NCBI GenBank assembly: GCA_025403435.1
Contig: CM046348.1
Coordinates: 10,968,606 to 11,032,605 of the forward strand
DNA length: 64,000 nucleotides
Direction: 5' to 3'
Origin: Artocarpus heterophyllus
Taxonomy: Eukaryota; Streptophyta; Magnoliopsida; Rosales; Moraceae
Shown: one piece after another, positions 1 to 54,186 of the stretch
Layout of the letters: every line of letters starts with the position of its first letter
Numbering within the stretch: position 1 is the stretch's first letter
The notes under the pieces: model-generated
The model's database searches: none
What the model was told of the DNA's origin: nothing
What the model saw: the letters and a program-made list of their open reading frames with translations, nothing else
Made by a program: the position numbers and the translations under genes

Positions 1-377
1 TATATTTTTATCTTTTCAGGACTCACTAAGTGTGAGGTGGCTACGAGAAATATAGTTGAGGAAGTGATGTAGCTATATTACATTGGGACTGCTTCAATTG
101 TTGAGAATGTTCTTCATGATAATGTAAGCATCAATTGTTACTTTCTGTGACTGTATTACAATGTGTTGAGGGTTAAAATGATGATGACAACAGTTTATAT
201 TATTAAATTTAAGGTGCTACATTAAAACTGTGGTTTATTTATTGTTTATATTTTTATTTTTGAGTTGAGAGTTTTCATTTAAGTCCCGGGTAAATTTTAT
301 TTTTAAGGTTTTACTTTTATTATTTATTTTTATTTTATCTCATTAAAAACTGTTAACCCCCATATAGGGGCGTTACA
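1..377 (+). mobile_element. 3' end of a family-A gypsy-type LTR, cut by the window edge
   Basis: This is the reverse complement of the first ~380 bases of the LTRs at 38729, 45877 and 52107. It shares the segment with CACTAAGTGTGAGGTGGCTA and ends in GGGGCGTTACA. In the element's own sense the LTR runs TGTGACACC...GGGGCGTTACA, so this copy is on the plus strand and only its 3' end is visible. No primer-binding site follows position 377, so it is either a solo LTR or the downstream LTR of an element lying to the left. Confidence 0.85.
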
Positions 378-1533
378 GTTATTTACAAGATTGTGTTCTT
401 GTCTTCTCTTTAAATCTGGTGAATGAAGGAAAAACTGGAAAGTCATCCACCAATGGTAAAAGGAAAAACGCCATTCATAAGATTGAATCGGAAAAGAGAA
501 TATCTAAATATAAACAATATATCTTATAGTCAAATTAAGTGAAAATTTAACAAATTCAAAAAATGCCTGTTCACAGGAAACAATTCAAAAGAAAAGTCGT
601 TGACCGGTGAAGAAGAATATTATACATAATCAAACCACTGGGCAACGTATACAAAGCTAAAAATCGTGTTTTTTTTCTTTTAAAAACAAGATCCATATGA
701 TAATGTTTTTAAAATGAGTAAAAATAATTTTGTTTTAAAAAATAAGATTTTTTTAAAAATTATATTGAAAATATTTTTAAAATTTTTACCTCAAAAAATA
801 TATAAAAATATTTTTAAACTTTCCCTAAAACAATAACAAACGAGGGATTTATTTTCTTTTTCTTTCTTCTTTATTTCCTAAAATCCGCAAAGGCCTCGTT
901 GTTTTTCTTTATTATTATTATTATTTTTTTGGGTTGGAGCGGCGTATAGAAACGTCGTCATCAGATTTAATCCAAAAGAAAAAAAACGTTGTCATCAGAT
1001 TTTATTTCAAAAAAAAAAGTCGGCAGAGAAATGTGAGGTGGCATTTATTTAAGTGAATTAAGTAGTGGAGGGAGTTGTGCTCGTGTGTCAATGTGGGTGA
1101 AGTGGGAGTTAAGAAGAGGGATGGAATTTCAAAAAAAAAAAAAAGATGGCCTTTTTGTAAATATGTATCGAAAGAGTAACTTGTTATTAGGCGAGTTTGT
1201 TTGAAAAAGTTAAAGTAACATATGTCAAAAGATTAACAGGGTGTTTAGGAGTGTTAGTCAGAATCAATTGATTAAAACTAATTAGTTAAAAATATCATAA
1301 AATATAAAAATTTTATATTGTAGTAGTTTGTTTTTATTTTTACTATAACTATTAAGAGTTTTATACTATTTATTGGTTAGAACCAATTAGTTCTAAATGA
1401 AAACTAAACAACGTTTGTAAAAGAGTATGAAATAGAAACTGAACTTGGCACTCCTCATTATGGCAACCAAGCAACATTCCTTGAAACATTTCAAAACAAA
1501 ACAGGTTGTTTATAACAATATTAAGTTCCTACT
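378..1533. other. AT-rich intergenic DNA, no gene seen
   Basis: Poly-A/T-rich sequence with short homopolymers and a small direct repeat around 940-1010 (GTCGTCATCAGATTT / GTTGTCATCAGATTT). No supported coding region or RNA gene was found. Confidence 0.5.
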
Positions 1534-10072: not shown

Positions 10073-12536
10073 TGTAACGCCCATATATGTAGGTTAACAG
10101 TTTTTGATGAATTAAAATAAAAATAAAAAATAAAAAATAAAAGTAAATCCTCAAAAATAAAGTTGCTCGGGCTTGAATGAAAACTCTAAAATCAAAAATA
10201 AAAATATAAACGACAATTAAACCACAGTTTAATGTAGCACCTTAAATTTAATAATGTAAATTATCGTCATCATCATTTCAATCCTCAACGCATTTTAATA
10301 CAGTTACAAAAAGTAACAATTGATGCTTATATTATCATGAAGAACATTCTTAACAATTGAAACAGTCTCAGCGTAATATAGTTATATAACTTCCTCAACT
10401 ATTTTTCTCGTAGCCACCTCATACTTAGTGAGTCCTGAAAAGATAGAAATATAAGGGAATGAGCGACAATATGCTCAGTAGGGAAAACCATTACTCACCT
10501 TTAGGTTTTTATCATTACCACATTAAAACCTGTATGGTTAGTTAATACTCATCATTATCTAGATTATGAGATTTATTATAATCATATTCCGTGGATACTA
10601 TAGTTAATCGTCATTGAGTTTCATACATATACATATATACAAATATTACAGTTCAACATTATTCCTAGATATCCACGTTTAATAGAGTATAACTCAACTC
10701 ATCGAAACCCAAATGGGCGCACTTGGCCACCCTTCAAACATTCAAAGGGCGTTTCGATGAGGGGACATCAAGCCCCGAGTCCTCACCAAGTGGATTCCTA
10801 TACAGTGTGTTTTGGAAATTTCGACCCAAGGGAGCGTCATCACCTCCTCCTATTTAACCTTTTGGGGTATTCGTGCCCAAGGACGTAACCGCCGCCCTCT
10901 TCACGTCTCACAATTCCTTCATATTAAATCATTATTTATAGAGTCAGTTTTCCTAACTATGCTTCTCAATTTATAACATGTGTCAAATCATTATGTTCCT
11001 TGTTGTACAATATAAGACGAGTTCTACATCATCATAATATAGATATAATCATATACATTCAAAATACCATATACATATCTTGCAACATAAAACAACCAAA
11101 TTTTCAATTTACCAAAACCTCACAAAAGATGAGTAATAGAATCCTTACGTTCCAAGCTTATCAACAATCTTTTAATCCCGAAATTAATTAACGTTAGCTC
11201 CACACTCCCTTGATCCTAAGGCGTGTATAAGGACAATTAAAACTAAAGCACAACTTACAACCACATTCATAAATAAATCATGTGTAAATTCATCTTACTA
11301 GTGTACCATTAAAGGTTTTATGTAAATCTCTTTTGAATACCACAGTAAATAATTTTTGTCTTAACACAATATAAAATGTATACAAGTAATCTATATGTTT
11401 TAGTCTCTAATAAAATTCACCAATCACTTAGGATAATATTATAAAGGTTGCAAGACATTAGGAATTAGGTGGTGAGCAAAGATGGGTTCTTGGTTCAGGT
11501 TAGCAGTTAGTATACCATGAAAACTGGCAGTATACTTTTGCAAAAGGATAGGTTCACTATCTACAATCATCACATGGGTTAACAAGTGGTTTACTTAATC
11601 TAAACGGGCGGTATATTGCCACTGGTAGGTTTACTAGTTTCCAATCTGAAAATTAAAAAATTCATAGAAAATAAAATACAATTTCGATTTAAGCTTATGA
11701 TAGCTCGTTAGAAAGCTTAGGATGTCTATTTTTTAAATATTCAAACCAATTTACAAAATTCATTTTTATTTAATCCCAGAATTTCAAGAAAGTACCACTG
11801 CCCATAGAGGTATTACAAAGTTTACTAATATAAATTTTTTGTCTACGGCATATGCACTTAGACCTTATACATATGCTCCAAAATAGCAACAAAACATATA
11901 CTCAGGTTTAAGAATGTAAATTTGAATAATCCTTGAGTATAAAAAAATTTATAAATGAAAGAGTAAATTTGTTCCTAAAATTCTAACATCGGATTATGGC
12001 TAGTTGAAAGCTTGAAATGGCTTCAAAATAGGTTTTTTGACTTTTGTATGGCTGAAATTCTTGCTCAAATAGAGGTGATGGTGGCTGATTTTTATGGCTA
12101 CCTTGAATAAGCTCTCTAAGTATTTTGCTTCAGCAAAAGAAATGAGAAGAAGAGTGTGGGAACCGTGGAAGAAAAAGAAAGAAAAGATGAAGTCTTTGAA
12201 GAGAAGTAATAGAAGCAATTATGGAGGAGACATGTTGGAGCATGTCACGGAGGAAATAAAGAAAATGAGGGTCAGGAGTAGTTGAGAAAGATATCTTCAT
12301 GTCTCCTCTGGAGACTTTAGCCCACATAATACCAAAATTACATTTTCAAAATTTATTAAAAGTTTCAAGGCTTTTTAGTAAACATACTAAATAAGTATAA
12401 GAGAATTTTAGAAAATTTAAAAATAGATAGAAATAAATATTGTGAAATAGATTTTAAATGAAACAAATTTTTGATTGACACACTAAAAATTAATTTAATT
12501 ATCTTAATACCCGTTAAGAAAATAATAGGAGTTACA
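10073..12536 (-). mobile_element. Old family-A solo LTR inside the kinase domain of pseudogene 1
   Basis: Begins TGTAACGCCCAT and ends GGAGTTACA on the plus strand. It aligns along its length with the LTR at 38729-41109 in the same orientation, so the element is on the minus strand. Flanks are ACACT (10068-10072) and ATACT (12537-12541), a 5-bp target duplication with one change. Several terminal bases have decayed, for example GTGTCACA to GAGTTACA. No internal region is present. It splits the kinase reading frame just after the YLDPEHL motif. Confidence 0.88.
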
Positions 12537-28300: not shown

Positions 28301-29367
28301 GAAAGAAATGAATGTTTAAGTTTATAGAATGTTCATAAAATGCTCATAATTGAAGTTAATAATTGAGCATAAATGGAGTCATGCATTCTGATGTTACTTG
28401 AATGCTTTTTTATGAAATGTTTATATGTTATGTTTATGGAAAACATTCTGAAAAATGTTTACGACAAATGTGTATGAATAACGTTTTCATGTTTTTAAGA
28501 AACGGTTTATGAACGACGTTTTAAGAAAAATGTTCAAGAAATGTTTTAAGAGAAAGGTTTTACATTAAATGTTTATGAAAAACATTTCATGTTTGCAAGA
28601 AAAGGTTTACGAATGACGTTTTAAGAAAAACGTTGAAGAAATGTTTTATGAAAAAAAAACGTTTTCAGAAATGTTCTATGAAAGACGTTTATGAAGAACG
28701 TTTTTAGAAATGTTTAAGGAAAACGTTTATGAAAAATATTTTCATAAATGTTTATGGAAAACGTTCATGAAGAACGTTTCAAGAGAAAAGTTTTCATGAG
28801 AAAAGTTTTAAAGCATGTTTAAATGCTTTGTGAGAATATGTTTGAACTTGCTGAGCGAAAGCTCATTAAAAGTTTTTCATGCTGTAGGTAACTTATGGGT
28901 GACCAATGGGACCCGTTAGAAGAGCTGGGTGCTGCGGAGGACAGATGCGAAGATTTGGGTATGGATACCATCACTGTTTGCTTCCGCTACGTAAAGAAAA
29001 TGTTTTCCATTGTTTAATGTTGTGTTTTCAAAGTTTAAAGAAAATCAGAGTTTTAAGAATTGTATTCAAAGTTTTAAGATACAGTTTATGAACTGTTTTA
29101 TGTAATGATAAAGTAAAGTTTTAAACTATGATTTAATAAATGTTTCTTATTAAGTTTTAAGAAACGTTTTGAAATGATTTTAAGGGCAAGTGTTGAGCGA
29201 TGTCTCAACTTGAATGCGACAGAGGTCGCATCAATATTAAAGAACGTTTAAGGAAAGAAAAAAAAAAAATTTTATTACAGTATTTTCTTACTAAGTAAGT
29301 AAGATTACTGTTTATGAAACTATGTTTATGAAAGTAAAGTGACTGCCCGAAAAGGCGGGTCGTCACA
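25320..29367 (+). repeat. LARD-type element, LTR copy 2 (4048 bp)
   Basis: Middle LTR of the array. It shares some variants with copy 3 only (for example GAACGCTAG near 27427) and has others of its own where copies 1 and 3 agree (for example TTAGAAGTC near 27661). Confidence 0.93.
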
Positions 29368-30458
29368 GGTGGTATCAGAGCAGTATCCTGCCATCCCATT
29401 TCGCGCTGTCATACGTCCGCTACACCATAGCTCAAGTAAGTAAGTTAAGTTAAGTAGAAAGAAAAGTTAGAATTTACTGAATACGTATTTATGTTAGGCG
29501 TAGCCTTTGATATTGGCACACCTAGATATGCAACGAGAAGGCAAAGGTCAAAGGATGAATGTGATGATATATGCTAGAATGTCCTCGCAAGTCGACTGTA
29601 GTCGTTGTCTGTTAGCGATATCAAGTCAACGATGACAAAGCGTGGTCAATGATGGTCAACAGATGGCCGACAACTCAAAATCAAGAAGATGAGCTTGTGA
29701 CACGTTATGATGTTTAGGCGCACAATGGTGTTTCCGTAGGAGCCAATATTACTCTGTTGTAGTTATTCTGTATTGGCTACACGTATAACGAGGAAAAGTG
29801 GATTAAGATAACGGAATAATGAAGGTCTGAAGTGATTTTCAGTGCTTTTATGGAACGAAAGTGCCTAAGAGCAACTTGACGTTAGATCATTAATTATGTT
29901 ATTTGATCGAGCTTGAGCACTCCTTCGCTGAGCTGAGACATGCGAATGAGCTCGTAACTGCCCGGATGGGAAATACGATCAAGACAACGATGCCCAATCT
30001 AGCAGCGGAAACCTCACAGATTGGAGGATGGAAGCTGGAAATTATACGTTATGAGGAAAATTACGCAAAATGTCATTCTAGAATGGATATAGAAACGAAA
30101 ATTATGGATTTTGTGATCGGATGACCCTGATCTTTAGAAGGAAACGAAGAGATTAGAATGAAAATGAACCCTATTTCTAAGAATAGCATTCAATGGTAGA
30201 ATGCTAAACCCTTAGATGAATGGAAACTGCGCTCAAATGTTGGAAGATCAGAGTTGCGCAGCAGAAGTGTGGTGTACAATTTAAAGGAATATGTCAAGAA
30301 CATGATGAAAATTGTTGAAGTTCTAAGATGAGGGCTCAGTTTTAATGAAAGAGTAGTGATCAAGGAAGTATGTCAAGAACGAAAAAGGATGACAAGGAAG
30401 ATGAACTACCTATGAAGGTTCTAATTTTCGAGGACGAAAATTGTTAAGGAGGGAAGAT
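29368..30458 (+). mobile_element. LARD-type internal region 2
   Basis: 1091 bp with PBS at 29370-29381 and polypurine tract at 30446-30458. Same structure as internal region 1, with no gag or pol. The frame at 29903-30124 matches the one in region 1 but has no known domain. Confidence 0.9.
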
Positions 30459-33400
30459 TGTAACACCCGAGATTTTTAGTGCATTAAAAATGCATTAAAT
30501 TAAAGATTATATTAAGACAAAGTACAATTAAAGGAAAATACTGTATAATAAGATGGAAAATTATACAGTGTTAGAGCAACGCAGTATAAGAATTGAATTG
30601 TGTGGACCACAATTTATCTTATACTTTTTATAAAAGAAAAGAAAAAAAAGAAAGAAAAAAAATCAGAAATTCCAAAGCAAACTCGACTTTCTCTCTCTAG
30701 ATTTTCTCTCTCTAGAATTTTCTCTCTCTCCTCAAATCTCGTTTGAGATTCCGGCGTTATTTTTCGACACCTCCTATACCAGTGGGAAGCTCTCGTTGAG
30801 CTGAGTCCAACGAGGTGTCGTGCCACCCAAATAGCCGCCGGAGGAGGGCCCACGCGCCGCCCAAAGTGGCGGCGAAACCCATTTTTTCCCGACGTCGTTT
30901 CTCGGCCGTCCGACCACCAATCGACGTGATTTTGGTGTCTATGGACTCAGTGTGAGGAGAGGAACAAGATGGTACCAATTTTCCAGCTCAATTTTGGCTG
31001 GAAAGGCTTCGCCGGAGCTGCCCATCTCCGCCGTGTCGCCGCCCCTCGAGAACCGCCGATAATGGCGGCGGTGAGGTACACCGCCGCCACCGTTCGATTC
31101 AGACGGCGACGGGGAGTGAAACCCCTCGCCTAATTTCACGCCACAGCCGCGGTTGGTCGGAGTTCCACCTCCGCCGTCGAGCGCCGCCGCGGAAGCCTTC
31201 GTAGCCACCGTTCCTGGCTGCCTCGCCCCAAATTGAAAGGGGGAAAATGTTCAGATGGTTGAGAAGAGCGTGAAGCAACTCTCAATTGCACGAAATGATG
31301 GCCGGAGGACGGAGAACGGCGTCTCCGTCGTGCACCGCCGTGGAGCTAGGTGGGGCCGCCGTTCCACGCGGTGTTGAGCTGCCCCACCGTAGGGGAAATA
31401 CTCAGAGGAGGTCAGGGAACAATTCCCCCACCTCAATTTCACGGTACCGTCGCCGGAGGACCGAAATCGGAGCCGCCGGTTTCCGCCGAGAATTCCGTCT
31501 TCGATTTGCTATGTTGGAGGCCGAATTGGGTGAAATTGACCCCACCAATCGACTCAGGAGGGTCGAATTAGGGGGGGTAGGCTCGAGCTCAGCCCTCAAC
31601 GGAGCCAACCGCCGCCGGTCAACGGCGGTCAACGGCGGTCAACGCCGGTCAACGGCCGGTCAAATGGCAAAATGGGATTTTGTGATCCGGACCTCCGATC
31701 GAAGATCCAAGACCGCCTCCCGACTCGTTTCGACGCTCTGAACGCAATGGTGACCTCCGTTCGAGCAAATTCCACTCCGATGAAAATCGTCCGGTACCGA
31801 CTGTACGCAGATCGAGGCGATTCAAACAGTAATATCGGAGTCTAGAAGGACAGTTTCAAGAATGCATGATCTCCAGGAAGCATTCCTAGCCATTTATGGT
31901 CGCTCGAGGAGCACTGCAGAGGATGCTTCACATACTGTAGATGCAGCGAGATACAACTGGATCTGCTTAGCTTGGAGTTCAAGTAAGTAGGAATCTCGCA
32001 TACAGTATAAACTGTTTTAGATGCTTTCATAGAAATTTATGAAATGCATGATCAGTGATTGTTACACTGTTTTATATGAGAATAGGTTTTATAACGTTAC
32101 AAGGTGACGAAAAAACCCGTTAAGGGTAAAATCGTCATTTCTAAAGAAACGGCTAGAACGGAGTCGAACACTCCGATTTAGCATAATGTTATTAGATGGA
32201 AAATGTTCCGTGATACGTTAAGTAACGTAACGGTCATGTGAGATCAAGATTTAACGAGGAATGTTTTAAGTAAACGAGTGGTAACCGATGAGTTACAAAG
32301 TTAAAAGGAAAAGTAACCCCGGTGGGTTACAAGGCTAATTGAAGGAAATGTAAACTGACAGTTTATAAGGTTGAGTAACAGAACGGTAGACCGATAGTAT
32401 ACCAAGTTATGAATAAGGAAAGAATGATTAATGTTTACGTTTTATTATCAATCGAGTGGATTGATAATAAAGAAAGTTAATTAATGAGTCGGCTGTCGTA
32501 TGATCAGGACACAAAAGCCGACCAATGGAAGGAAAAGGAACGATAAAGGAATGGAATAGAGAACGCTAGAGTATAGTTCGGGTAAGTTTCAAACCTCACC
32601 TACAGCATGAAGTAAATGATTTTTAAATGCTTATTTATATGTTTGCAAATGTGTTTGCAATTGTTAAGCAAGTTTCTTTTAAAGTATATTTGCATTTATT
32701 ATGCAAAAAGTTTTAAAGTTCAAGAAAAAGAATTGCAATGAAATTGCAATCGTTATGTTAAAGGTTTATTGGCATATTGATATGCATAACGTTATTTAAA
32801 AGTCTAAGTTATGATTTTTAAAGTATTTAAAGTATATTTTGCATTATGACAATGCAAAATGTTTTATGGTTTAAGTTATAAGTTTCATGTTGCATTTGCT
32901 ATGCAATAAGTTGCATTTATTGTGCAATAAGTTTTAGAATAAAAGTTATAGTTTGCAAAATGTGTTAGCATTTTATGATGTATTTATTAAGCAATATGTT
33001 GCATTTGTTATGCAATGAGTGTTAGAATGCAAGTTATGATTTGCAAAATGTGTTTACATTTTATGTTGCATTTGTTATGCAATGAGTTGCATTTATTATG
33101 CAATTGGTTTTATAGTATAAGCTATGAATTGCAAGTGTATTGCATATGATGTGATTGCATTTGAAATGCTCACTAAAGTTAATAAGAAGGTAACGTTAAG
33201 ATAAAAAGAAAGTGTCGTACCAGCCTCTTTGTTATGAGGTAATGAAAGTGAAATTAAAGTGTGACCTCCTAAAGGTGAGGTACAAGACCTCAATGTTTGA
33301 TGGTCTCAAGTCTTCCACAAGGGAAGCATCATGTTTACGATCTCATGATTAATGAGTTGGTACGAACACTAAAGTAAAGTAAGGAAAATGAAGGTTACAA

Positions 33401-34499
33401 GATAAAGAAAGTTAAGGAATAAGAATAAAGGTTGAGAAAGAAATGAATGTTTAAGTTTATAGAATGTTCATAAAATGCTCATAATTGAAGTTAATAATTG
33501 AGCATAAATGGAGTCATGCATTCTGATGTTACTTGAATGCTTTTTTATGAAATGTTTATATGTTATGTTTATGGAAAACATTCTGAAAAATGTTTACGAT
33601 AAATGTTTATGAATAACGTTTTCATGTTTTCAAGAAACGGTTTATGAACGACGTTTTAAGATAAACGTTCAAGAAATGTTTAAGAGAAAGGTTTTACATT
33701 AAATGTTTATGAAAAACATTTCATGTTTGCAAGAAAAGGTTTACGAATGACGTTTTAAGAAAAACGTTGAAGAAATGTTTTATGAAAAAAAACGTTTTCA
33801 GAAATGTTCTATGAAAGACGTTTATGAAGAACGTTTTTAGAAATGTTTAAGGAAAACGTTTATGAAAAATATTTTCATAAATGTTTATGGAAAACGTTCA
33901 TGAAGAACGTTTCAAGAGAAAGGTTTTCATGAGAAAAGTTTTAAAGCATGTTTAAATGCTTTGTGAGAATATGTTTGAACTTGCTGAGCGAAAGCTCATT
34001 AAAAGTTTTTCATGCTGTAGGTAACTTATGGGTGACCAATGGGACCCGTTAGAAGAGCTGGGTGCTGCGGAGGACAGATGCGAAGATTTGGGTATGGATA
34101 CCATCACTGTTTGCTTCCGCTACGTAAAGAAAATGTTTTCCATTGTTTAATGTTGTGTTTTCAAAGTTTAAAGAAAATCAGAGTTTTAAGAATTGTATTC
34201 AAAGTTTTAAGATACAGTTTATGAACTGTTTTATGTAATGATAAAGTAAAGTTTTAAACTATGATTTAATAAATGTTTCTTATTAAGTTTTAAGAAACGT
34301 TTTGAAATGATTTTAAGGGCAAGTGTTGAGCGATGTCTCAACTTGAATGCGACAGAGGTCGCATCAATATTAAAGAACGTTTAAGGAAAGAAAAAAAAAA
34401 ATTTTATTACAGTATTTTCTTACTAAGTAAGTAAGATTACTGTTTATGAAACTATGTTTATGAAAGTAAAGTGACTGCCCGAAAAGGCGGGTCGTCACA
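30459..34499 (+). repeat. LARD-type element, LTR copy 3 (4041 bp)
   Basis: Right LTR of the array, ending GGTCGTCACA at 34499 and followed directly by TTGCT and the rest of copia gag. At many sites where copy 2 differs it agrees with copy 1, as expected if copies 1 and 3 are the original pair of one insertion. Confidence 0.93.
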
Positions 34500-38522: not shown

Positions 38523-41372
38523 TGTTGGATCAAAATCCAATATATGGGCTAATATATTAAATAAATGTGAATTAAAGGCTATTGATAAGGTTGCCCAATT
38601 AAAAGTGATCAATTTAGATTTTGGCCTTTTAATGCATCATTAAGTGTGGGCCTTCTATGTGTAGAGACCAAAAATATAATTACTAATTTTATGATGGGCT
38701 AAATTAGTAATTAAGGATAATTGCTAGGTGTAACGCCCCTATATGAGGGTTAACAGTTTTTAATGAATTAAAATAAAAATCAAAAATAAAAGTAAAACCT
38801 TAAAAATAAAGTTGCCCGGGGCTTAAATGAAAACTTTCAAATCAAAAATAAAAATATAAATGACAAATAAACCACAGTTTAATGTAGCACCTTAAATTTA
38901 ATATTATAAACTGTCGTCATCATCATTTTAACCCTCAACGCATTGTAATATAGTCACAGAAAGTAACAATTGATGCTTACATTATTATGAAGAACATTCT
39001 TAACAATTGAAGCAGTCCCAATGTAATATAGCTACATTGCTTCCTCAACTATTTTTCTCGTAGCCACCTCACACTTAGTGAGTCCTGAAAAGATAAAAAT
39101 ATAAGGGAATGAGCGACACTATGCTCAGTAGAGAAAACCATTACTCACCTTTAGGTTTTTATCATTACCACATTAAAACCTGCATGGTTAGTTAATAGTT
39201 ATTATTATCTAGATTATGAGATTTATTATAATCATATTCCGTGGATACTATAGTTAATCATTACCGAGTTTCATATATATACATATATACAAATATTATA
39301 GTTCATCATTATTCCTAGGTACCCACGTTCAATAGAGTATCACTCAACTCATCGAAACCCAAAATGACGTGCTTGATCACCCTCTAAATATTCCAAGGGT
39401 GTTCCGGTGAGGGGACATCAAGCCTCGAGTCCTCACCAAGTCGATTCCTGTACAGTGTGTTCTGGGACTTTCAACCCAAGGAAGCGTAATCACCTTCCCC
39501 CTATTTTACCTTTTAAGGTATTCATGCCCAAGGACGTAACCGCCGCCCTCTTTATGTCTCACTATTTCTCTATATTAAATCATTATTAATAGAGTCAGTT
39601 TTCTAACCATGCTTCTCAATTTATAACATGTGTCAATTCATTATGTTCCTCGCCATACAATACAAGACGAGTCCATGTCATAGTTTCATATATGATACTC
39701 ATATAATATCAGTTCAACATAGATATATATATATATATCTTGCGGTAAAACAATCAATTTTCATTCTATAAAAATCTCACAAAAGATGAGTAATAGAATC
39801 CCTACCTTTCAAGCTTATCAACAATCTTTTAATCCTGGAATCAATTAACGTTAGCTCCATACTCCCTTGATCCTAAGGCGTGCATAAGGACAATTAAAAC
39901 TAAAGCACAACATACAACTATATTCATAAATAAATCATGTGTAAACCTATCTTACTAGTATGCCATTAAAGCTTTTATGTAAAGCTCTTTTGAATACTAC
40001 AGTAAACAATTTTTGTCAATTTTTGTCTTAACACAATATAAAATGTAAACAAGTAATCTATATGTTTTAGTTCCTAATAAGATTCATCAATCACTTAGGA
40101 TAATATTGGAAAGGTTGCAAGACATTAAAGAATTAGGTGGTGAGCAAAGATAGGTTCTTGGTTTAGGTTAGCAGCTGGAATACCATAACAAACTGACAGG
40201 TTTACTAGTTTCCAATCCAAAAATTGAATAATTCATAGAAAATAAAATACAACTCCGATTTAGGTTTATGATAGCTCGTTAGAAAGCTTAGGATGTTTAC
40301 TTTTCAAATATGCAAACCAATTCATAAAATTCATTTTAATTTAATCCCAGAATTTTAAGAAATAGCCACTGCCCATAGAGGTATTTCAAAGTTTAACAAT
40401 ATAAATTTTCTGTCTAGGGCATATACACTTAGACTTTATACATATGCTCCAAAATAGCAACAAACATATACTTAGATTTAAGAACGCAAATTTGAATAAT
40501 CCTTTAGTATAAAAGAAAATTTATAAATGAAAGACTAAATTTATTCATAAGATTCTAACCTCGGATTATGGTTAGTTGGAAGCTTGAAATGGCTTCAAAA
40601 CAGGTTCATTGACTTCAGTATGGCTGAAATTCTTGCTCAAATGGGGGTGATGGTGGCTGATTTTTATGGCTGCCTTGAAGAAGTTCTCTAAGTATTTTGC
40701 TTCAGCAAAGAAATGAGAATAAGAGTGTGGGAACCGTGGAAGAAAAAGGAAGAAAAGATGAAGTCTTTGAAGAGAAGTGATAGAAGCAATTATGGAGGAG
40801 ACATGTTGAAGCATGTCACGGAGGAAATAAAGAAAATGAGGGTCAAGAGTAGTTGGAAAAGATATCCTTATGTCTCATCTGGAGACTTTAACGCACATAA
40901 TGCCAATATGATATTTTTGAGATTTATTAGAAGTTCTAAGGCTTTTTTTTAGTAAACATACTAAATAAATATAGGAGAATTTTAGAAAATTTAAAAATAG
41001 ATAAAAATGAATATTGTAAAATAAATTTAAATGAAGCAAATTTTTTTTTGATACACTAAAAATTAATTTAATTACCTTAATACCCGTTAGGAGAATAACG
41101 GGTGTCACACTAGGGTTTAGCAATTATATAAAGAGGTTGTGGTCCCCAAGTCAGTACGTATATTATTTTTCTGTTCCCATCTATAGAGAAATTATAGAGC
41201 ATTCTGAGAGTGATGATTTACGTACCAAACTTAGAATATCCTCAACCTACAGACTCAGGAATCACATTCAATCAATGGATTCAGGTTAGCTTCGCATCTT
41301 ATTAATATTCTTGATGATTTGATATGAATGATCCTGAGTGATAATGGTTTTCATCACAATTTTATTCTAACA
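38523..41372 (+). repeat. Copia 3' LTR, split by a solo LTR
   Basis: Left part is 38523-38728, right part 41115-41372. The nested element and one CTAGG duplicate lie between them. Removing them leaves 464 bp, the same as the 5' LTR. The last ~47 bases occur again in the 228-bp tandem duplication to the right. Confidence 0.93.
38729..41109 (-). mobile_element. Family-A solo LTR inside the copia 3' LTR
   Basis: TGTAACGCCCCT ... GGTGTCACA on the plus strand, flanked by CTAGG at 38724-38728 and 41110-41114. 2381 bp. It matches the LTRs of the LOG-carrying element at 45877-54077 but keeps a ~400-bp middle section (about 39930-40330) that those lack. No internal region, hence a solo LTR. Confidence 0.93.
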
Positions 41373-45719: not shown

Positions 45720-45876
45720 GAGGTGGTGTCCCATTTTTTACCATTACTATTACGTTCCACCACTTTTTTCTTTAATTTGATTTATATCATTTCTCCTAAC
45801 TAAAAAGGTCAAAATACTCTTAAATAACATATATTTGCCTAACCCTAACTCATAACACTTGAGAACAATAATGTCT
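45720..45876 (-). repeat. Dispersed repeat B, copy 3 (continues at 54078-54118)
   Basis: The reverse complement of this block plus 54078-54118 aligns with copies 1 and 2 (TATAAAGACATTATTG, GGTTAGG, TATTTTGACCTTTTTAG). The LOG-carrying retrotransposon split it with a TGTCT duplication, so the repeat was there first. Confidence 0.6.
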
Positions 45877-47848
45877 TGTAACGCCCCTATATGGGGGTTA
45901 ACAGTTTTTAATGAGATAAAATAAAAATAAATAATAAAAGTAAAACCTTAAAAATAAAATTTGCCCGGGACTTAAATGAAAACTCTCAACTCAAAAATAA
46001 AAATATAAACGACAAATAAACCACAGTTTTAATGTAGCACCTTAAATTTAATAATATAAACTGTTGTCATCATCATTTTAACCCTCAACACATTATAATA
46101 CAGTCACAGAAAGTAACAATTGATGCTTACATTATCATGAAGAACATTCTTTACAATTGAGCAGTCCCAATGTAATATAGTTACATCGCTTCCTCAACTA
46201 TATTTCTCGTAGCCACCTCACACTTAGTGAGTCCTGAAAAGATATAAACATAAGGGTATGAGCAACACTATGCTCAGTAGAGAAAGCCATTATTCACCTT
46301 TAGGTTTTTATCATTACCACATTAAAACCTGCATGGTTAGTAAGTCACATCATATTCCAGATTATGAGGTTTATTATGATCACATCTTATGGATACCGTA
46401 GTTAATCATTACCAAGTGTCATAATTACACATTTATACAAATATTACCAATCATCATTGTTCCTAGGTATCCATGTTAAATTGAGTATCACTCAACTCAT
46501 CGAAACTTAAATGGGCGCACTTGATCACCCTATAAACATTCCAAGGGTGTTCCGGTGAGGGGACATCAAGCCCCGAGTCCTCACCAAATCGATTCCTGTA
46601 CAGTGTGTTCTGGGACTTTCAACCCAAGGAAGCGTCATCGCCTTCCCCCTATTTTACCTTTTAGGGTATTCATGCCCAAGGACGTAACCGTCGCCCTCTT
46701 CATGTCTCACAATTTCTCTATATTAAATCATTATTAATAGAGTTAATTTTCCTAACCATGCTTCTCAATTTATAACATGTGTCAATTCATTATGTTCCTC
46801 GCCGTACAATACAAGACGAGTCCATGTCATAGTTTCATATGTGATACACATATAATATCAGTTCAACATAGATATATATGTTGCGGCAAAACAATCAATT
46901 TTAATTCTATAAAAACCTCACAAAAGATGAGTAATAGAATCCCTACCTTTTAAGCTTATCAACAGTCTCTTAATCCTGGAATCAATTAACGTTAGCTCCA
47001 TACTCCCTTGATCCTAAGGCGTGCATAAGGACAATTAAAACTAAAGCACAACATACAACTACATTCATAAAATTTATTTTAATTTAATCTTAGAATTTCA
47101 AGAAATAACCACTGCCCATAGAGGTATTACAAAGTTTAACAATATAAATTTTCTGTCTAGGGCATATACACTTAGACTTCATACATATGCTCCAAAATAG
47201 CAACAAACATATACTTAGGTTTAAGAACGTAAATTTGAATAATCCTTTAGTATAAAAGAAAATTTATAAATGAAAGACTAAATTTGTTCATAAGATTCTA
47301 ACCTCGGATTATGGTTAGTTGGAAGCTTGAAATGGCTTCAAAACAGGTTCCTTTACTTCGGTATGACTGAAATTCTTGCTCAAATGGAGGTGATGGTGGC
47401 TGATTTTTATGGCTGCCTTGAAGAAGTTCTCTAAGTATTTTGCTTCAGCAAGGAAATGAGAAGAAGAGTGTGGGAACCGTGGAAAAGAAAGGAAGAAAAG
47501 ATGAAGTCTTTGAAGAGAAGTGATAGAAACAATTATAGAGGAGACATGTTGAAGCATGTCACGGAGGAAATAAAGAAAATGAGGGTCAAGAGTAGTTGGA
47601 AAAGATATCCTTATGTCTCATCTAAAGACTTTAACACACATAATGCCAATATGACATTTTTGAGATTTATTAGAAGTTCTAAGGCTTTTTAGTAATCATA
47701 CTAAATAAATATAGGAGAATTTTAGAAAACTTAAAAATAGATAAAAATAAATATTATAAAATAAATTTAAATGAAGCAATTTTTTTTTTATACATTAAAA
47801 ATTAATTTAATTACCTCAATACCCGTTAGGAGAATAACGGGTGTCACA
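45877..47848 (-). repeat. Downstream (3') LTR of the LOG-carrying element
   Basis: 1972 bp, plus-strand ends TGTAACGCC and GGTGTCACA. Compared with the LTR at 38729 it lacks about 400 bp near 47069, where TTCATAAA occurs at both edges of the missing segment in the longer copy. Confidence 0.94.
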
Positions 47849-47866
47849 GCTCTACCCCCCTTAAAG
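47849..47866 (-). other. Polypurine tract of the LOG-carrying element
   Basis: On the minus strand the sequence is TTTAAGGGGGGTAGAGC directly before the LTR start TGTGACACC. It is preceded by CGAGGACGAAATTTC, as in Tekay/Del-type gypsy elements. Confidence 0.85.
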
Positions 47867-48522
47867 AAATTTCGTCCTCGAAATTTCAATTCTAGCAATA
47901 CTAGTAAAAATTTTGATTCCATTATGATTCCAATTCCGAGTCTAAACCGTTAATGTTGTTTATCTTCCAAAGTTAAGTTATCGTATCTCCACTTATTTAC
48001 TTGCATAATAAATCTTACTCCTAAATCCCTCAATGAGAGTATTTCTGACAAGTTTCAACTTATAACACCGTATAATAGTCTAAGAATCTGATCAGGCATA
48101 CATATTGACCATACCATGATTCCAGTCCTTCATTGTCCATGGACTGTGATTTACAATCACATTTAAGGAGATTGCCAGAGAAATTTTATATACTTCATCT
48201 TTAGGTTCCTTTTCCTTTTTGAGTAAGGAAAAGTCAAATATATTTGATTTCATACCTCAACTAATAAACTAAAACATAATCATAAAACATATATCACAAA
48301 CGCTTTTATTCAAAACTATACATTAAACTTACTCATAGAGATATTAAACGGAATCTCAGAGTTGCAAACATACCCGACATATTTTTCATTAAACAGCTAT
48401 CCTCATGACACAAACATTCAATCCAAATAATATACCCATATTTCATATGGAATATCCTCATAACTGACTCTGGTACTTCCACATAATATTAACAGAATAT
48501 TACACATTACAAACATAATACG

Positions 48523-48675
48523 GATACGTTTCGAGAGTACAAGACACTCCGTATACCAGCTATCCATATCATGCATGCTTAGAGGATACAAAAACATCGA
48601 TAAACAAAAGATCGGACCTTAAGAAGGATGCGTTTCGAGAGCATCAAGTACTCCGTATCCAGCCATCCCGGCATT
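48523..48675. repeat. Two ~48-bp imperfect direct repeats in the element's internal region
   Basis: GGATACGTTTCGAGAGTACA (about 48523) and GGATGCGTTTCGAGAGCATC (about 48627) are each followed by CTCCGTAT and CCAGC(T/C)ATCC. They lie between the LOG-like ORF and the polypurine tract, possibly a short duplication in the transcript's 3' untranslated part. Confidence 0.7.
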
Positions 48676-48803
48676 AGGCTCAATGAATCTAAAAGATTGA
48701 ACAACGACGTACCACAAGAAACACAGAATACAAGGCAAACGGTTATTCGTAACACACGAAATACGGACACACATGCCTACATGCCAAAGATAAAACAAAA
48801 AGA

Positions 48804-49454
48804 TTACAGATGGAGATTCAAATCAATTGGCCGCTCCCGGCTTTCCCTTTCCCAGTCAAGCTTGGATGTTGCAGTGTCGGATTCTGGATGTATGATTTGC
48901 ATTTTATCTATCAATTCCTCAGCTGTTGAAGCAATAACAAAGATTTGTCTCTCCGATTCTGTAGTGATGTTTTCTTCCACAGCGTAATCTAGAAATTTCA
49001 AAAGACCGTCATAAAAACCCTTTACATTCAGCAGTCCCAAAGGTTTGGAATAAAAGCCCAACAATTGCCCACAAGCAACTATAAATATTTCCTCAAGAGT
49101 ACCTAGACCACCAGGTAATGCTATAAAAGCATCAGAATTATAGATTATGTCTTTAAAATTTTTAGGGATACTCCTGACTCCTTCTCCCTTACCTATGGCT
49201 TCCTTACAAAGGTTTCCTTCAACTGGAATATGAGGCCAAATTCTTACATCAGTAGCGTCGCTAGACCTAGCTGCTAGTGCCATATTTACCATCATTTTTA
49301 TACTACCACCCCCATAGATTATGTTAATCTTCTTGTGTGCTAGGACTTGCCCTAAGTGATTTGCAGCTTCTAAATAAGCTTTATCTTTTCCAAGGCTGGA
49401 ACCACAAAAGACACAGACATTCTTTATTTTCTTCGTGGACTGGGAGGTAGACAT
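48804..49454 (-). CDS. LOG-like protein (cytokinin riboside 5'-monophosphate phosphoribohydrolase family), captured by a retrotransposon
   Basis: LOG enzymes release active cytokinin bases from riboside monophosphates in the cytosol. The ATG at 49454 gives 216 residues, the usual LOG length, beginning just before VCVFCGSS. An in-frame upstream extension to 49493 has no ATG. Landmarks are FCGSS (16-20), YGGGS (47-51), SDAFIALPGG (107-116), PGGLGTLEE (114-122) and the C-terminal TSKLDWE. Plant LOG genes normally have several introns; this frame has none, so it was probably copied from spliced mRNA. Two features cast doubt on activity. The glycine-rich GLMG after GGGSI reads KMMV (53-56). The arginine expected about 23 residues before the motif glutamate (E122) is asparagine 99. 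It may be a pseudoenzyme, a binding protein or passive cargo. It is in the sense orientation of the element, 644 bp downstream of the zinc-finger ORF. Confidence 0.9.
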   Translation of the reverse strand: MSTSQSTKKIKNVCVFCGSSLGKDKAYLEAANHLGQVLAHKKINIIYGGGSIKMMVNMALAARSSDATDVRIWPHIPVEGNLCKEAIGKGEGVRSIPKNFKDIIYNSDAFIALPGGLGTLEEIFIVACGQLLGFYSKPLGLLNVKGFYDGLLKFLDYAVEENITTESERQIFVIASTAEELIDKMQIIHPESDTATSKLDWERESRERPIDLNLHL

Positions 49455-50098
49455 ATTTGGTTTATAGAAGTGGTTGCTTAATGTCTGCTCCACTTAGACT
49501 TCGGGTTCTACATGAGTTTTTAAAGATGAGAAATATACAAAAAGGGCTAAAGAGATAGACGAGTAGGTAATGAAAAGGTAATCCAAAGATTTAAACAAAA
49601 TCTTGTGCGGATAAGAAAGTAAGATAAGGTGATTGATAGTTTACAGAAAATCTGATTCACTTTTTTGAAAAAGATTAGACTCTAATTGTATAACTTTTGA
49701 CAATTGAGAACAATTCGACAGAAGACCCTCATGACACAACTGTAGACTTTTTGACAAATATACACCAAGTCTAGAAATTTAATATAAACGACAAATACTG
49801 TAGAACTTTTGAAATTTGAGACACAAATCTTGAAATATCTGGATAAGTTTTTCAAAATTCAAACATATTACTGTACCGTATGTAACGTGTCTGATAAGAT
49901 AATATATTTTATTATATATATATTTAAGAAAATCATAAATTAAATAAGATATTAACACTTACTGTATCAATCTAATAATCACAATTATTTCAAACACAAA
50001 AGCAAATATTCTGAGTAAAAGAAAAACACAAACTGTTGAACATCAGCTAAAACTGCTTCAAATAAGCAAAGACTAAATAACCTTTATAGAGCGATGAC

Positions 50099-50620
50099 TT
50101 ATTTCCCATCCAGTTTTCTTATGGCTTGGCAAACAGGATCTAGAAATACCATATTCCTGAGGCGTTGTCTTTCTGTATAAAATTTAGGCCAGAGTTTAAA
50201 AATAGCTCCTTGAACATATCCACTAGGGTGACCGTGGAGAGGAGGATGGATGCTATCCAAGTTCTCCTTTGAAAGTCCATCCCTACAAAACCTTATTTTA
50301 TCCTCTCTATTCGTAGACATATAACCAGGTGAAGTACATTTACCGTTACAATTTTGTCTTCCACATTTGTTACAAGTGACCACGATGGCACGAGCTCTTC
50401 TTTTCATTGCACTACGACTGGTACCCGTTCCTGGTAAACCGACATCTTGACTAAAGTCACTCGGACGGATTTTCCCCTCTATCAACATTCTCACATCACA
50501 AGGGATACCAAAACGCATAAGAATCCACAACCGAGTAATTCTAGCCTTATATTTCTTTCTGAGAATCTTTTGGGAGAGTGATGGGAAATACTTTCTCATG
50601 TGTTGGTACTTTGGGTCCAT
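50099..50620 (-). CDS. Basic zinc-finger protein, layout like viral cysteine-rich nucleic-acid-binding proteins
   Basis: An intact 173-residue ORF with ATG at 50620 in good context (ATGG), first in the element after a ~1.5-kb leader. Residues 1-30 are basic. A short hydrophobic segment with GIPCDV (38-43) follows. Then comes a KRRARA cluster (73-78) just before a four-cysteine finger (C83, C86, C91, C95), a CTSPG turn (95-99) and a C-terminal IHPPLHGHPSG stretch. This order (hydrophobic segment, arginine cluster, finger, PG turn, proline/histidine tail) resembles the cysteine-rich proteins of carla- and allexi-type plant viruses, which bind nucleic acid and can suppress RNA silencing. That match is from memory of the family layout and is moderate. 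It is longer than those proteins. A gag-derived nucleocapsid is the main alternative, but the finger is not the CCHC type. Confidence 0.7.
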   Translation of the reverse strand: MDPKYQHMRKYFPSLSQKILRKKYKARITRLWILMRFGIPCDVRMLIEGKIRPSDFSQDVGLPGTGTSRSAMKRRARAIVVTCNKCGRQNCNGKCTSPGYMSTNREDKIRFCRDGLSKENLDSIHPPLHGHPSGYVQGAIFKLWPKFYTERQRLRNMVFLDPVCQAIRKLDGK

Positions 50621-52086
50621 GATGAGATGAAAGAAGAGTAAATAGAAAGGAAAAATTAAGATAGTAAATTGCAGAATCCTAGAATTCCTTCTTCTTTTAG
50701 AGGAAAAGAAGAATTTTTAATGAAAAAGAAGAGGATTTGCGATTTAGAGAAAAAATAACAAATTAAGAGAGAAAAAGTGAACTCGGAGAAATAAGGTCTT
50801 ACGCACAGTAAACGTATATGTAAACAATAATTAAACCACTGTATATGACACGTATAGAGACCACGTGGGAGAGACAGTGTGAATCAAACTGATTTAGGAT
50901 TTGAACTAGGCCCAAATGTTCTAAGTTGAAAATGGTCAGGTTGTTTCGGGCCTTAACACATTTAGAACAAGTTAAATAACAAACATAAAATTGAAAACCA
51001 ATTCGTATGAATCTTAAACCCAATTCAAAGCCCACTATAGATAAAGTTAATTATGAACAACAAATCTAATTTAACGACAACAAGGATCTTCCTGAATGAT
51101 ATTTAAAATCATTTCATAACAACATAATCTTCCAGCAACTCGAATAATTTTGTTTTAATCAAAACCTTATTGAACAATACATACACCCATATGTTATTCA
51201 TAATACTTAACATCTATCAATGGATTCATCATCATTACTACCAAGGGTTTAGAATGCGACTAACCTTGAAATCAATACGATTTACGTCTTCCAACGTAGA
51301 CCATATCAATGAACAAAGACACTAGATGTTACTACTTAAGAACATCTATAATCCCCACAATTCTACTCATACAATATATAATTTCCTCATATAACAAAAC
51401 CTTAGGTAACCAAAAGATTCACTGATACACTTAAATACAATGTACGTAACAAAATATTCCAATTTTGAGATTCATGCATTCTAGACTTTACACAGTCTCA
51501 ACAGACCAAAAGTCTAACATTTATCTCTCTCATGATTCAATACCATGATTTCCAACTTATATCATATTCCTCAAATAAATAGAACTTTTAAGAAAAGATA
51601 TTGACACTTATGTGCTCCATCGAATCCACACATAATCATTACTTAGGTTTGAATCAATTACGAAAAATTTGGCATATCTATGTCAAACTTTAAAATCAAT
51701 AAGTCAAGCCTTATATTTCTTATTGTTTTTCACGAGACAAAAGGCTCTTAAATCCTCGTATCTATACGAATTTCTCATCGTTTATACGAATTAAATATGC
51801 TTATAGATCCAAATATTATACGAATCTCTCATAAGCATTCTACTTATAAACTCATTCCATATAATTATTATTCCCTTATAACTATTAATACTTTCCTTCT
51901 ATATAATTATTGTACTCATATAACTATTGATATTTTCATTCTATGGCCTTTCCATGTTACATCCTTCTAGACTGTATAAATCAATGTGAAGGTTCATTTT
52001 GATGATGACAATGAAAATTCAGCTTCAAAACCATCTCAAAAATATTTTTTAAAGTGGTGCTACACTCCCTAGGTTAACCGAACCTA
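50621..52086 (-). other. 5' leader of the LOG-carrying element
   Basis: The 1.47 kb between PBS and first ORF hold no gag frame and no frame with a recognised domain. A 78-codon frame at 50799-51035 has no similarity. Around 51750-51950 short units such as TTATACGAAT and CATATAACTATTGATA repeat imperfectly. Confidence 0.6.
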
Positions 52087-52099
52087 GGCTCTGATACCA
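52087..52099 (-). other. Primer-binding site of the LOG-carrying element
   Basis: The minus strand reads TGGTATCAGAGCC followed by TAGGTTCGGTTAACC, eight bases from the LTR end. It is complementary to initiator-Met tRNA and fixes the element orientation. Confidence 0.92.
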
Positions 52100-52106
52100 A
52101 AAATTC

Positions 52107-54077
52107 TGTAACGCCCCTATATGGGGGTTAACAGTTTTTAATGAGATAAAATAAAAATAAATAATAAAAGTAAAACCTTAAAAATAAAATTTGCCCGGGA
52201 CTTAAATGAAAACTCTCAACTCAAAAATAAAAATATAAACGACAAATAAACCACAGTTTTAATGTAGCACCTTAAATTTAATAATATAAACTGTTGTCAT
52301 CATCATTTTAACCCTCAACACATTATAATACAGTCACAGAAAGTAACAATTGATGCTTACATTATCATGAAGAACATTCTTTACAATTGAGCAGTCCCAA
52401 TGTAATATAGTTACATCGCTTCCTCAACTATATTTCTCGTAGCCACCTCACACTTAGTGAGTCCTGAAAAGATATAAACATAAGGGTATGAGCAACACTA
52501 TGCTCAGTAGAGAAAGCCATTATTCACCTTTAGGTTTTTATCATTACCACATTAAAACCTGCATGGTTAGTAAGTCACATCATATTCCAGATTATGAGGT
52601 TTATTATGATCACATCTTATGGATACCGTAGTTAATCATTACCAAGTGTCATAATTACACATTTATACAAATATTACCAATCATCATTGTTCCTAGGTAT
52701 CCATGTTAAATTGAGTATCACTCAACTCATCGAAACTCAAATGGGCGCACTTGATCACCCTATAAACATTCCAAGGGTGTTCCGGTGAGGGGACATCAAG
52801 CCCCGAGTCCTCACCAAATCGATTCCTGTACAGTGTGTTCTGGGACTTTCAACCCAAGGAAGCGTCATCGCCTTCCCCCTATTTTACCTTTTAGGGTATT
52901 CATGCCCAAGGACGTAACCGTCGCCCTCTTCATGTCTCACAATTTCTCTATATTAAATCATTATTAATAGAGTTAATTTTCCTAACCATGCTTCTCAATT
53001 TATAACATGTGTCAATTCATTATGTTCCTCGCCGTACAATACAAGACGAGTCCATGTCATAGTTTCATATGTGATACACATATAATATCAGTTCAACATA
53101 GATATATATGTTGCGGCAAAACAATCAATTTTAATTCTATAAAAACCTCACAAAAGATGAGTAATAGAATCCCTACCTTTTAAGCTTATCAACAGTCTCT
53201 TAATCCTGGAATCAATTAACGTTAGCTCCATACTCCCTTGATCCTAAGGCGTGCATAAGGACAATTAAAACTAAAGCACAACATACAACTACATTCATAA
53301 AATTTATTTTAATTTAATCTTAGAATTTCAAGAAATAACCACTGCCCATAGAGGTATTACAAAGTTTAACAATATAAATTTTCTGTCTAGGGCATATACA
53401 CTTAGACTTCATACATATGCTCCAAAATAGCAACAAACATATACTTAGGTTTAAGAACGTAAATTTGAATAATCCTTTAGTATAAAAGAAAATTTATAAA
53501 TGAAAGACTAAATTTGTTCATAAGATTCTAACCTCGGATTATGGTTAGTTGGAAGCTTGAAATGGCTTCAAAACAGGTTCCTTTACTTCGGTATGACTGA
53601 AATTCTTGCTCAAATGGAGGTGATGGTGGCTGATTTTTATGGCTGCCTTGAAGAAGTTCTCTAAGTATTTTGCTTCAGCAAGGAAATGAGAAGAAGAGTG
53701 TGGGAACCGTGGAAAAGAAAGGAAGAAAAGATGAAGTCTTTGAAGAGAAGTGATAGAAACAATTATAGAGGAGACATGTTGAAGCATGTCACGGAGGAAA
53801 TAAAGAAAATGAGGGTCAAGAGTAGTTGGAAAAGATATCCTTATGTCTCATCTAAAGACTTTAACACACATAATGCCAATATGACATTTTTGAGATTTAT
53901 TAGAAGTTCTAAGGCTTTTTAGTAATCATACTAAATAAATATAAGAGAATTTTAGAAAACTTAAAAATAGATAAAAATAAATATTATAAAATAAATTTAA
54001 ATGAAGCAATTTTTTTTTATACATTAAAAATTAATTTAATTACCTCAATACCCGTTAGGAGAATAACGGGTGTCACA
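52107..54077 (-). repeat. Upstream (5') LTR of the LOG-carrying element
   Basis: 1971 bp and nearly identical to 45877-47848. Differences seen are C for T near 52738, A for G near 53944 and one T fewer in a T run near 54018. Confidence 0.94.
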
Positions 54078-54186
54078 TGTCTTTATATTTATTGGAAGTG
54101 TTATGTTTCAATCTTTTTCATAGAGGTTGTAAAATTGAAAAATAAATAAATAAACACCACATAAGTGTTTTTTTTTTCCAAATTGA

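Follow-up and report, generated by a model that had tools for sequence, protein, structure and literature searches.

A gag-pol-less LTR retrotransposon family of Artocarpus heterophyllus carries a flexivirus-related zinc-finger protein and a LOG-like protein likely devoid of enzyme activity

Introduction

Non-autonomous retrotransposons are usually viewed as gutted parasites. LARD, TRIM, and TR-GAG are non-autonomous LTR elements that possess LTRs, a primer-binding site (PBS), and a polypurine tract (PPT) without a complete gag-pol, and TR-GAG encodes Gag only. An LTR element of Artocarpus heterophyllus, located in a stretch of 64,000 nucleotides that was analysed as a whole (hereafter the window), raises the question of why an element of this kind should carry two intact open reading frames (ORFs), one for a zinc-finger protein of viral type and the other for a LOG-like protein, and what these proteins might do for it.

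Structure of the element

The window contains a complete LTR element of 8.2 kb, whose sense strand is the minus strand. The 5' LTR (52107..54077, minus strand, 1971 bp) and the 3' LTR (45877..47848, minus strand, 1972 bp) differ by two substitutions and one gap, and the pair is bordered by a 5-bp target-site duplication, TGTCT, on the left (45872..45876) and on the right (54078..54082). A PBS (TGGTATCAGAGCC, 52087..52099, minus strand), which we take to be of the initiator-Met type, lies 7 bases after the 5' LTR, and a polypurine tract region with the purine tract AAGGGGGG (47849..47872, minus strand) is found immediately before the 3' LTR; the LTR ends and the PPT are presumably of chromovirus-like style. 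By its paired LTRs, duplication, PBS, and PPT, the element is an LTR retrotransposon.

Two intact ORFs are located in the sense direction. ORF 1 (50099..50620, minus strand) encodes a zinc-finger protein of 173 aa, apparently related to the cysteine-rich nucleic-acid-binding proteins of flexiviruses, and ORF 2 (48804..49454, minus strand) encodes a 216-aa LOG-like protein in a single uninterrupted frame. No further ATG ORFs of at least 130 aa were present inside the element, and 10 scanned of the 28 other internal open stretches of at least 45 aa gave no Pfam match to gag or pol families, their sole weak match being to a HEPN family (E 0.099, below its cut-off). With no gag-pol found among the ATG ORFs and these 10 of 28 stretches, the window element is classed as non-autonomous; neither the ORFs nor these stretches matched Gag in Pfam, and it is thus not a TR-GAG. 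This anatomy, comprising the LTRs, PBS, polypurine tract, duplication, lack of a detected gag-pol, and two intact sense ORFs, had been described in an earlier note on this DNA and was confirmed in every part.

The window also holds a solo LTR of the same family (38729..41109, minus strand, 91–95% alike, with CTAGG on each side), an older family LTR (10073..12525, minus strand, 86–89%), and the end of another (1..378, plus strand, 97%) with no PBS behind it.

Copy number and retention of the ORFs

The LTR-PBS junction of the element occurred 3,829 times, at no more than two mismatches, in the 985-Mb host assembly, and the control occurred 0 times. The window element belongs to a family numbering thousands, and the single-copy oddity that the earlier note had weighed as a sign of passive hitch-hiking is ruled out by these junctions. 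All of the 150 LOG matches scored were full length and stop-free at 99–100%, a biased set because it comprises the best 150 of 6,114 candidates. Both ORFs, together with the window's 4.26-kb internal region, were present in all 20 elements fetched from this list, and such identical structure rules out host genes merely caught inside one element. The amplification is recent: the LTR pairs differ by no more than 0.31% in 17 of the 18 elements with both LTRs readable, and 5-bp duplications were found in 16 of the 18. In a blind sample of 40 LTR-PBS junctions, ORF 1 was present at 39 and ORF 2, at least in part, at 38, which supports the earlier note's proposal that the two ORFs were retained as the element transposed.

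An autonomous partner, as envisaged in the earlier note, was sought through a variant, partly older LTR-PBS junction, which was located at 8 places in the host assembly. At all 8, the 1.2 kb fetched carried the family's zinc-finger ORF and aligned with the internal region of the family, so that no partner was found at these places. Since these copies are 78–98% like the window copy and all carry ORF 1, the cargo predates the recent burst. Randomly broken ORFs in related copies had been suggested as a further sign of hitch-hiking; the ORFs proved mostly intact in young copies, but the zinc-finger frame was broken in 5 of the 8 variant-junction copies, as expected from decay after insertion.

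Selection on the two ORFs

Among the variants of ORF 1 shared between copies of the 40-copy blind sample, we counted 6 nonsynonymous and 14 synonymous changes, or 0.15 of what neutrality predicts (p = 5e-5); the singletons (28 nonsynonymous, 14 synonymous) were near neutral. As judged from sequence comparison, these shared variants point to purifying selection acting on ORF 1. For the LOG ORF, the shared variants (10 nonsynonymous, 9 synonymous) gave a borderline result (p = 0.056), all variants gave p = 0.072 in the 40-copy sample versus p = 0.035 in the first 21, and the singletons were again near neutral. Of the dN/dS near 1 that had been named as a mark of passive carriage, ORF 1 is clear, with a ratio well below neutral; the LOG ORF stays borderline in the blind sample. 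Pairwise divergence was 1.09% in the non-coding spacer between the ORFs and 1.27% in ORF 1, and low divergence by itself proves nothing, because ORF 1 is no more conserved than the spacer.

These data bear on the explanation that a recent burst from few masters copied both ORFs without their having any role. The almost identical LTRs, the near-neutral singletons of both ORFs, the borderline LOG signal, the conserved spacer, and the broken ORF 1 frames at the variant junctions would all fit such passive copying. We nevertheless consider it unlikely, given the strong departure from neutrality among the ORF 1 shared variants, the occurrence of ORF 1 in copies just 78% like the window's, and the persistence of relatives of both proteins, at about 40–60% identity, in other sequences, many of them named as plant.

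The zinc-finger protein

ORF 1 contains a four-cysteine knuckle (C83, C86, C91, C95; 50336..50374, minus strand) adjoined by a basic KRRAR stretch, and the four cysteines (CCCC) and MKRRAR were kept in 40/40 copies analysed. The window copy falls below the cut-offs of both Pfam profiles (E 0.0095 and 0.1). Its family amounts to 832 proteins at E ≤ 10, the best 120 of which were listed, and among 126 aligned family members, Viral_NABP and Carla_C4 were each matched by 96 (E ≤ 1e-3). For the fold search we used a structure model built from 126 sequences (pLDDT 82.5); an earlier, poor model from 16 sequences (pLDDT 55.6) was set aside. Foldseek against the viral library BFVD returned probabilities of 0.75–1.00 at ranks 1–21 and below 0.1 from rank 22 onward. 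Of the first 21, 18 were named, all as plant-virus proteins, presumably of Alpha- and Betaflexiviridae, and the names were mostly nucleic-acid-binding, RNA-binding, or silencing suppressor; E-values at these ranks were 0.005–0.94, none reaching 0.001, and the query-normalised TM-scores were just 0.24–0.39. By the family profile matches and the fold search, ORF 1 falls in a large family of plant proteins that appears to be akin to the nucleic-acid-binding proteins of flexiviruses, a kinship that the earlier note had proposed. Viral contigs yielded 54 pattern matches and 0 relatives of ORF 1, and genome contigs yielded 117 pattern matches and 1 relative, on a contig in a bacterial bin. One relative was located directly behind an integrase (3.3 kb seen).

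Alternatively, ORF 1 might be a packaging or nucleic-acid-chaperone protein that replaces the Gag nucleocapsid, so that the element's RNA is preferred in the partner's particles. The invariant knuckle beside the KRRAR stretch is consistent with this function, which would also account for selection acting on the copy that the element itself carries. The fold search, however, points to flexivirus proteins, with only 4 matches in the PDB at a probability of 0.02 or less, and the element in which a relative lies behind an integrase can be expected to possess a Gag itself (only 3.3 kb being seen), so that we regard a packaging role as improbable.

The LOG-like protein

ORF 2 matched TIGR00730 at 3.3e-38 and, by this match together with its PGGxGTxEE motif (PGGLGTLEE, 49089..49115, minus strand; unaltered in 38 of the 39 readable copies), falls within the LOG family. 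Its Asn99 codon (49158..49160, minus strand) stands in a column occupied by Arg in 112 of the 121 proteins aligned, an Arg that we take to be the catalytic residue of LOG enzymes. With Asn at this position, cytokinin activation by ORF 2 is unlikely, and the earlier note's premise that it makes active cytokinin is not supported by the alignment. In addition, the window copy has KMMV in place of GLMG, the branch of ORF 2 measures 0.67 substitutions per site, and the score against the NCBIfam LOG equivalog is 86.5 at a cut-off of 300. The loss of catalysis is not beyond doubt, because 9 of 39 copies have an Arg one residue ahead of the lost position. ORF 2 is likely a LOG-derived protein without enzyme activity. 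That ORF 2 has kept its cytokinin-activating function and stimulates the division of host cells appears very unlikely, as the TIGR00730 match, the intact PGGLGTLEE motif, and the displaced Arg are opposed by the Asn, KMMV, the equivalog score, and the branch length.

The C-terminal IDLNLHL of ORF 2 (48807..48827, minus strand), an LxLxL-type tail, was unchanged in 34/34 readable copies, and an [LI]xLxL tail is present in 88 of the 121 LOG proteins aligned, that of the window among them. We assume this LxLxL tail to be an EAR-like co-repressor motif (TOPLESS type). As a separate observation, the LOG relative P0046 and the zinc-finger relative P0149 have the same length, 8723, for their longest contig, a hint that one contig may bear both.

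Proposed mechanism

We tentatively propose, at somewhat under even confidence, a gag-pol-less LTR family that is likely moved by a Ty3-type partner and encodes a suppressor, ORF 1, and a pseudoenzyme, ORF 2, acting via its LxLxL tail. The partner's proteins would mobilise the element. ORF 1, apparently of flexivirus type, is predicted to bind RNA and suppress silencing, which might benefit the RNA of the element itself. ORF 2, its enzyme activity likely lost, would act on the host through the tail by recruiting a co-repressor of the TOPLESS type, and together the two proteins would help the element evade host silencing.

A further reading, for which we see only a small chance, is a two-part retrotransposon: one element would provide gag-pol, and a separate, highly successful one would carry counter-defence genes only, for a silencing suppressor of virus type and for a LOG pseudoenzyme that has come to recruit host repressors. 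Such an arrangement would resemble a segmented virus, in which replication and suppression are split between genome parts.

The element has amplified to thousands of copies and kept two accessory proteins, one of a type with which plant RNA viruses counter silencing. Should the proposed mechanism be true, the family would make it possible to test directly whether silencing suppressors are encoded by plant retrotransposons, and how an element incapable of copying itself keeps a trans-acting protein.

Comparison with known systems

The earlier note knew of no described family with this cargo. For the LOG-type protein this does not hold, as plant Ty3/gypsy elements with such cargo have been published before (PMC9289625); the combination of a LOG-type protein with one of viral type in a family lacking gag-pol, in contrast, was not found in the literature. 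According to PMC9289625, which cites Steinbauerova et al. 2011, YgdH (LOG-type) extra domains occur in Ty3/gypsy elements of Citrus and Populus, and the consensus elements carry pol, because they were collected by reverse transcriptase. Like the window element, these encode a LOG-type protein in a plant LTR element; the window element differs in having no gag-pol, a second ORF of viral type, and the aligned Arg replaced.

With LARD, TRIM, and TR-GAG, the window element shares LTRs, a PBS, a PPT, and the lack of a complete gag-pol, but its two conserved ORFs code for proteins with no match to gag or pol. ORF 1 resembles the flexivirus cysteine-rich proteins (PF01623, PF05515) in its basic stretch and four-cysteine knuckle, with profile matches for its family and fold matches for its model, whereas it is encoded in retrotransposon DNA and its window copy lies under the Pfam cut-offs. 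ORF 2 is similar to plant LOG (LONELY GUY) enzymes in family match and PGGxGTxEE motif; it shows about 37–48% identity to the aligned LOG relatives (apart from P0001, 99%), differs from them in the replacement of Arg by Asn, and, unlike two aligned Musa LOG proteins, possesses the LxLxL tail.

Structure of the Element and Its Surroundings

The family element lies at 45877–54077 on the minus strand. Two substitutions and one gap separate its two LTRs, which are 1972 and 1971 bp long. TGTCT stands at both ends, a PBS lies 7 bases past the 5′ LTR, and a purine tract is found just ahead of the 3′ LTR. In the sense direction, the 5′ LTR is followed by a 1.5-kb leader, a zinc-finger ORF (173 aa; 50099–50620, minus strand), a 0.64-kb spacer, a LOG-like ORF (216 aa; 48804–49454, minus strand), approximately 1 kb of further DNA, and the 3′ LTR. 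No gag or pol domain was found in ten further open stretches (of 28) of the element. The same family is represented in the window by a solo LTR (38729–41109, with CTAGG on each side), an older LTR (10073–12525), and an LTR end (1–378). LTRs of the family occur in two lengths, approximately 1970 and 2360 bp, the longer carrying some 390 extra bases (copies L011, L013, L015, and L023, and 38729–41109 in the window).

Elsewhere in the window, positions 20176–34499 hold three units that resemble LTRs, each about 4.05 kb long, 99% alike, and recurring with a period of about 5.14 kb; about 1.1 kb lies between neighboring units, and TTGCT is present on both outer sides. This array appears to be another small LTR element of the non-autonomous kind, with the form LTR-internal-LTR-internal-LTR, inserted in a frame (19748–20215) labeled by eye as copia-gag-like. 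One of the eight window ORFs of at least 130 aa, at 16611–17192, appeared by eye to be receptor-kinase-like.

Copy Number and Age of the Family

The family element is genuine and abundant, and it has been active recently. The host is taken to be a plant, since the named relatives listed for the two proteins come from plants. In the host assembly (985 Mb, 334 contigs), the junction of LTR end and PBS was detected at 1,860 forward and 1,969 reverse places with up to two mismatches, against 0 for the control; at 8.2 kb per junction, this extrapolates to approximately 31 Mb, or about 3% of the assembly. A search of the assembly with the LOG protein gave 6,114 candidates, the best 150 of which were all full length and stop-free, with 99–100% identity. 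Twenty 9-kb stretches taken from these 150 were all elements with both ORFs. The LTR pairs could be compared in 17 of the 20 and in the window copy, and among these 18 elements the divergence was 0–0.31% in 17 and 1.1% in L026 (median, 0.0005), with exact 5-bp duplications in all except L021 and L026 (16/18). Same-strand copies about 6.2 kb apart were seen at C1:15107090 and 15113320, C22:23827117 and 23833354, and C12:5310774 and 5316978, the spacing expected of tandem elements with a common LTR.

A variant junction, similar to the one at the window's older LTR, was found at eight places. All eight matched the internal region of the family (78–98% over 1.2 kb each) and carried the zinc-finger ORF (67–99% protein identity), and therefore the family and its cargo predate the recent burst; these stretches cover the zinc-finger ORF, and LOG lies outside them. 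The zinc-finger frame was stop-free in three of these copies (L071, L072, and L076) and broken in five (L070, L073, L074, L075, and L077), the decay expected of older copies after insertion.

Tests of Selection on the Two ORFs

Copies were also sampled blind, by junction, on two contigs. On C1, every third of 65 listed exact junctions was taken, with L015 standing in for index 45 and index 63 excluded because it was already among the LOG matches, and both ORFs were present in all 20 new stretches. On C2, 20 of 35 listed junctions were chosen by eye, excluding four that coincided with scored LOG copies, which biases this sample against intact LOG; the zinc-finger ORF was found in 19 of the 20 and at least part of LOG in 18, with neither ORF in L058 and the zinc finger only, within its stretch, in L064. 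In the analyzed set of 40 (39 new stretches and L015), the zinc-finger ORF was broken in L053, L059, and L067 and had a one-base gap in L034, and the LOG ORF was disrupted in L045 and missing from L064; the LOG end lay beyond some stretches, and the tail was unread in 6 of the 40.

The neutral expectation was derived from 21 copies, using the spectrum of mutations in their leader and 3′ region, both non-coding. The tests take variants as independent, ignoring the tree of the copies. Shared variants in the zinc-finger ORF comprised 14 synonymous and 6 nonsynonymous changes, 0.15 of the neutral value (p = 5e-5), and singletons (14 and 28, respectively) were near neutral; all variants together gave p = 0.00092. 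These data supported selection on the zinc-finger ORF. In the LOG ORF, shared variants (9 synonymous, 10 nonsynonymous) were at 0.43 of neutral (p = 0.056), singletons numbered 15 and 31, respectively, and all variants together were at 0.66 of neutral (p = 0.072). In the initial set of 21 copies, the LOG total had given p = 0.035 (shared variants, p = 0.13), so the larger sample adds no strength to the LOG total, and selection on the LOG ORF is only suggested. Mean pairwise divergence was 1.09% in the spacer between the ORFs, 1.27% in the zinc-finger ORF, 2.3% in the leader, and 2.0% in the 3′ region; the non-coding spacer is thus as conserved as the zinc-finger ORF.

Relatives of the Zinc-Finger Protein

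A single-sequence search returned 15 relatives of the zinc-finger protein, and a profile search returned 832 proteins at E ≤ 10, the best 120 of which included chromosomal relatives named for Xanthoceras, Populus, Acer, Hibiscus, and Rhamnella. Viral_NABP was matched by 96 of the 126 aligned family members and Carla_C4 likewise by 96 of 126 (E ≤ 1e-3); the window copy itself matched neither at this threshold. A structure model built from the 126 sequences (pLDDT 82.5, pTM 0.65) had 21 matches in a viral structure library at probabilities of 0.75–1.00, with E-values of 0.005–0.94 and low TM-scores. The 18 named matches came from plant viruses, which we take to be Alpha- and Betaflexiviridae. 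In the PDB, the model had only four matches, at probabilities of 0.02 or less.

One contig from a bacterial bin (L001) encodes an integrase (PF00665, PF17921), behind which lies a relative with 51% identity that matches Viral_NABP at E 3e-8. This is plant-like Ty3-type retrotransposon DNA, presumably Athila-like in style, on a contig binned as Candidatus Nomurabacteria, where it is likely a contaminant. When another relative, P0149, was used as the query against the host, the best 150 of 5,298 candidates were 52–54% alike, and all five that fall on C1 lay about 1.5 kb behind a listed junction, like the family's own zinc-finger ORF. The longest contig is 8723 for both P0149 and the LOG relative P0046, which hints that a single contig of another species holds the two ORFs together.

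Features of the LOG-Like Protein

The LOG-like protein matches TIGR00730 (3.3e-38) but scores 86.5 bits for the LOG equivalog, whose cut-off is 300. In an alignment of 121 proteins, the Glu of PGGxGTLEE is retained. Arg occupies the catalytic column in 112 proteins; the window copy and its relative P0001 have Asn there. Asn was found at this column in all 39 readable sample copies, nine of which have Arg one position before it. An [LI]xLxL ending is present in 88 of the 121 proteins, and the IDLNLHL tail was identical in all 34 readable sample tails; we take LxLxL to be the EAR co-repressor motif. The tree places the window protein with P0001 on a common branch of 0.67 substitutions per site, and the two group with three other tailed proteins with weak support (0.35).

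Overall Reading and Comparison with Described Elements

Taken together, the viral-type protein, at least, looks selected, and we take the element to be non-autonomous, with a cargo that likely serves counter-defence. No partner element was found for the family, and this, with the borderline selection on LOG, is among the weakest points of this reading.

With most subscription journals outside the search, no publication was found that pairs a retrotransposon with carlavirus and nucleic acid binding protein or with Carla_C4, no title in a wider search described such an element, and PMC9289625 alone was found for YgdH with retrotransposon. A term search of PMC11963269 and PMC6317226 showed YgdH, carlavirus, and nucleic acid binding to be absent. 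According to PMC9289625, which cites Steinbauerova et al. 2011, Ty3/gypsy consensus elements of Citrus and Populus carry YgdH, the domain of LOG proteins; extra ORFs are reviewed in PMC7264820. In PMC6338049, viral helicases in insect retrotransposons are discussed as possible suppressors.
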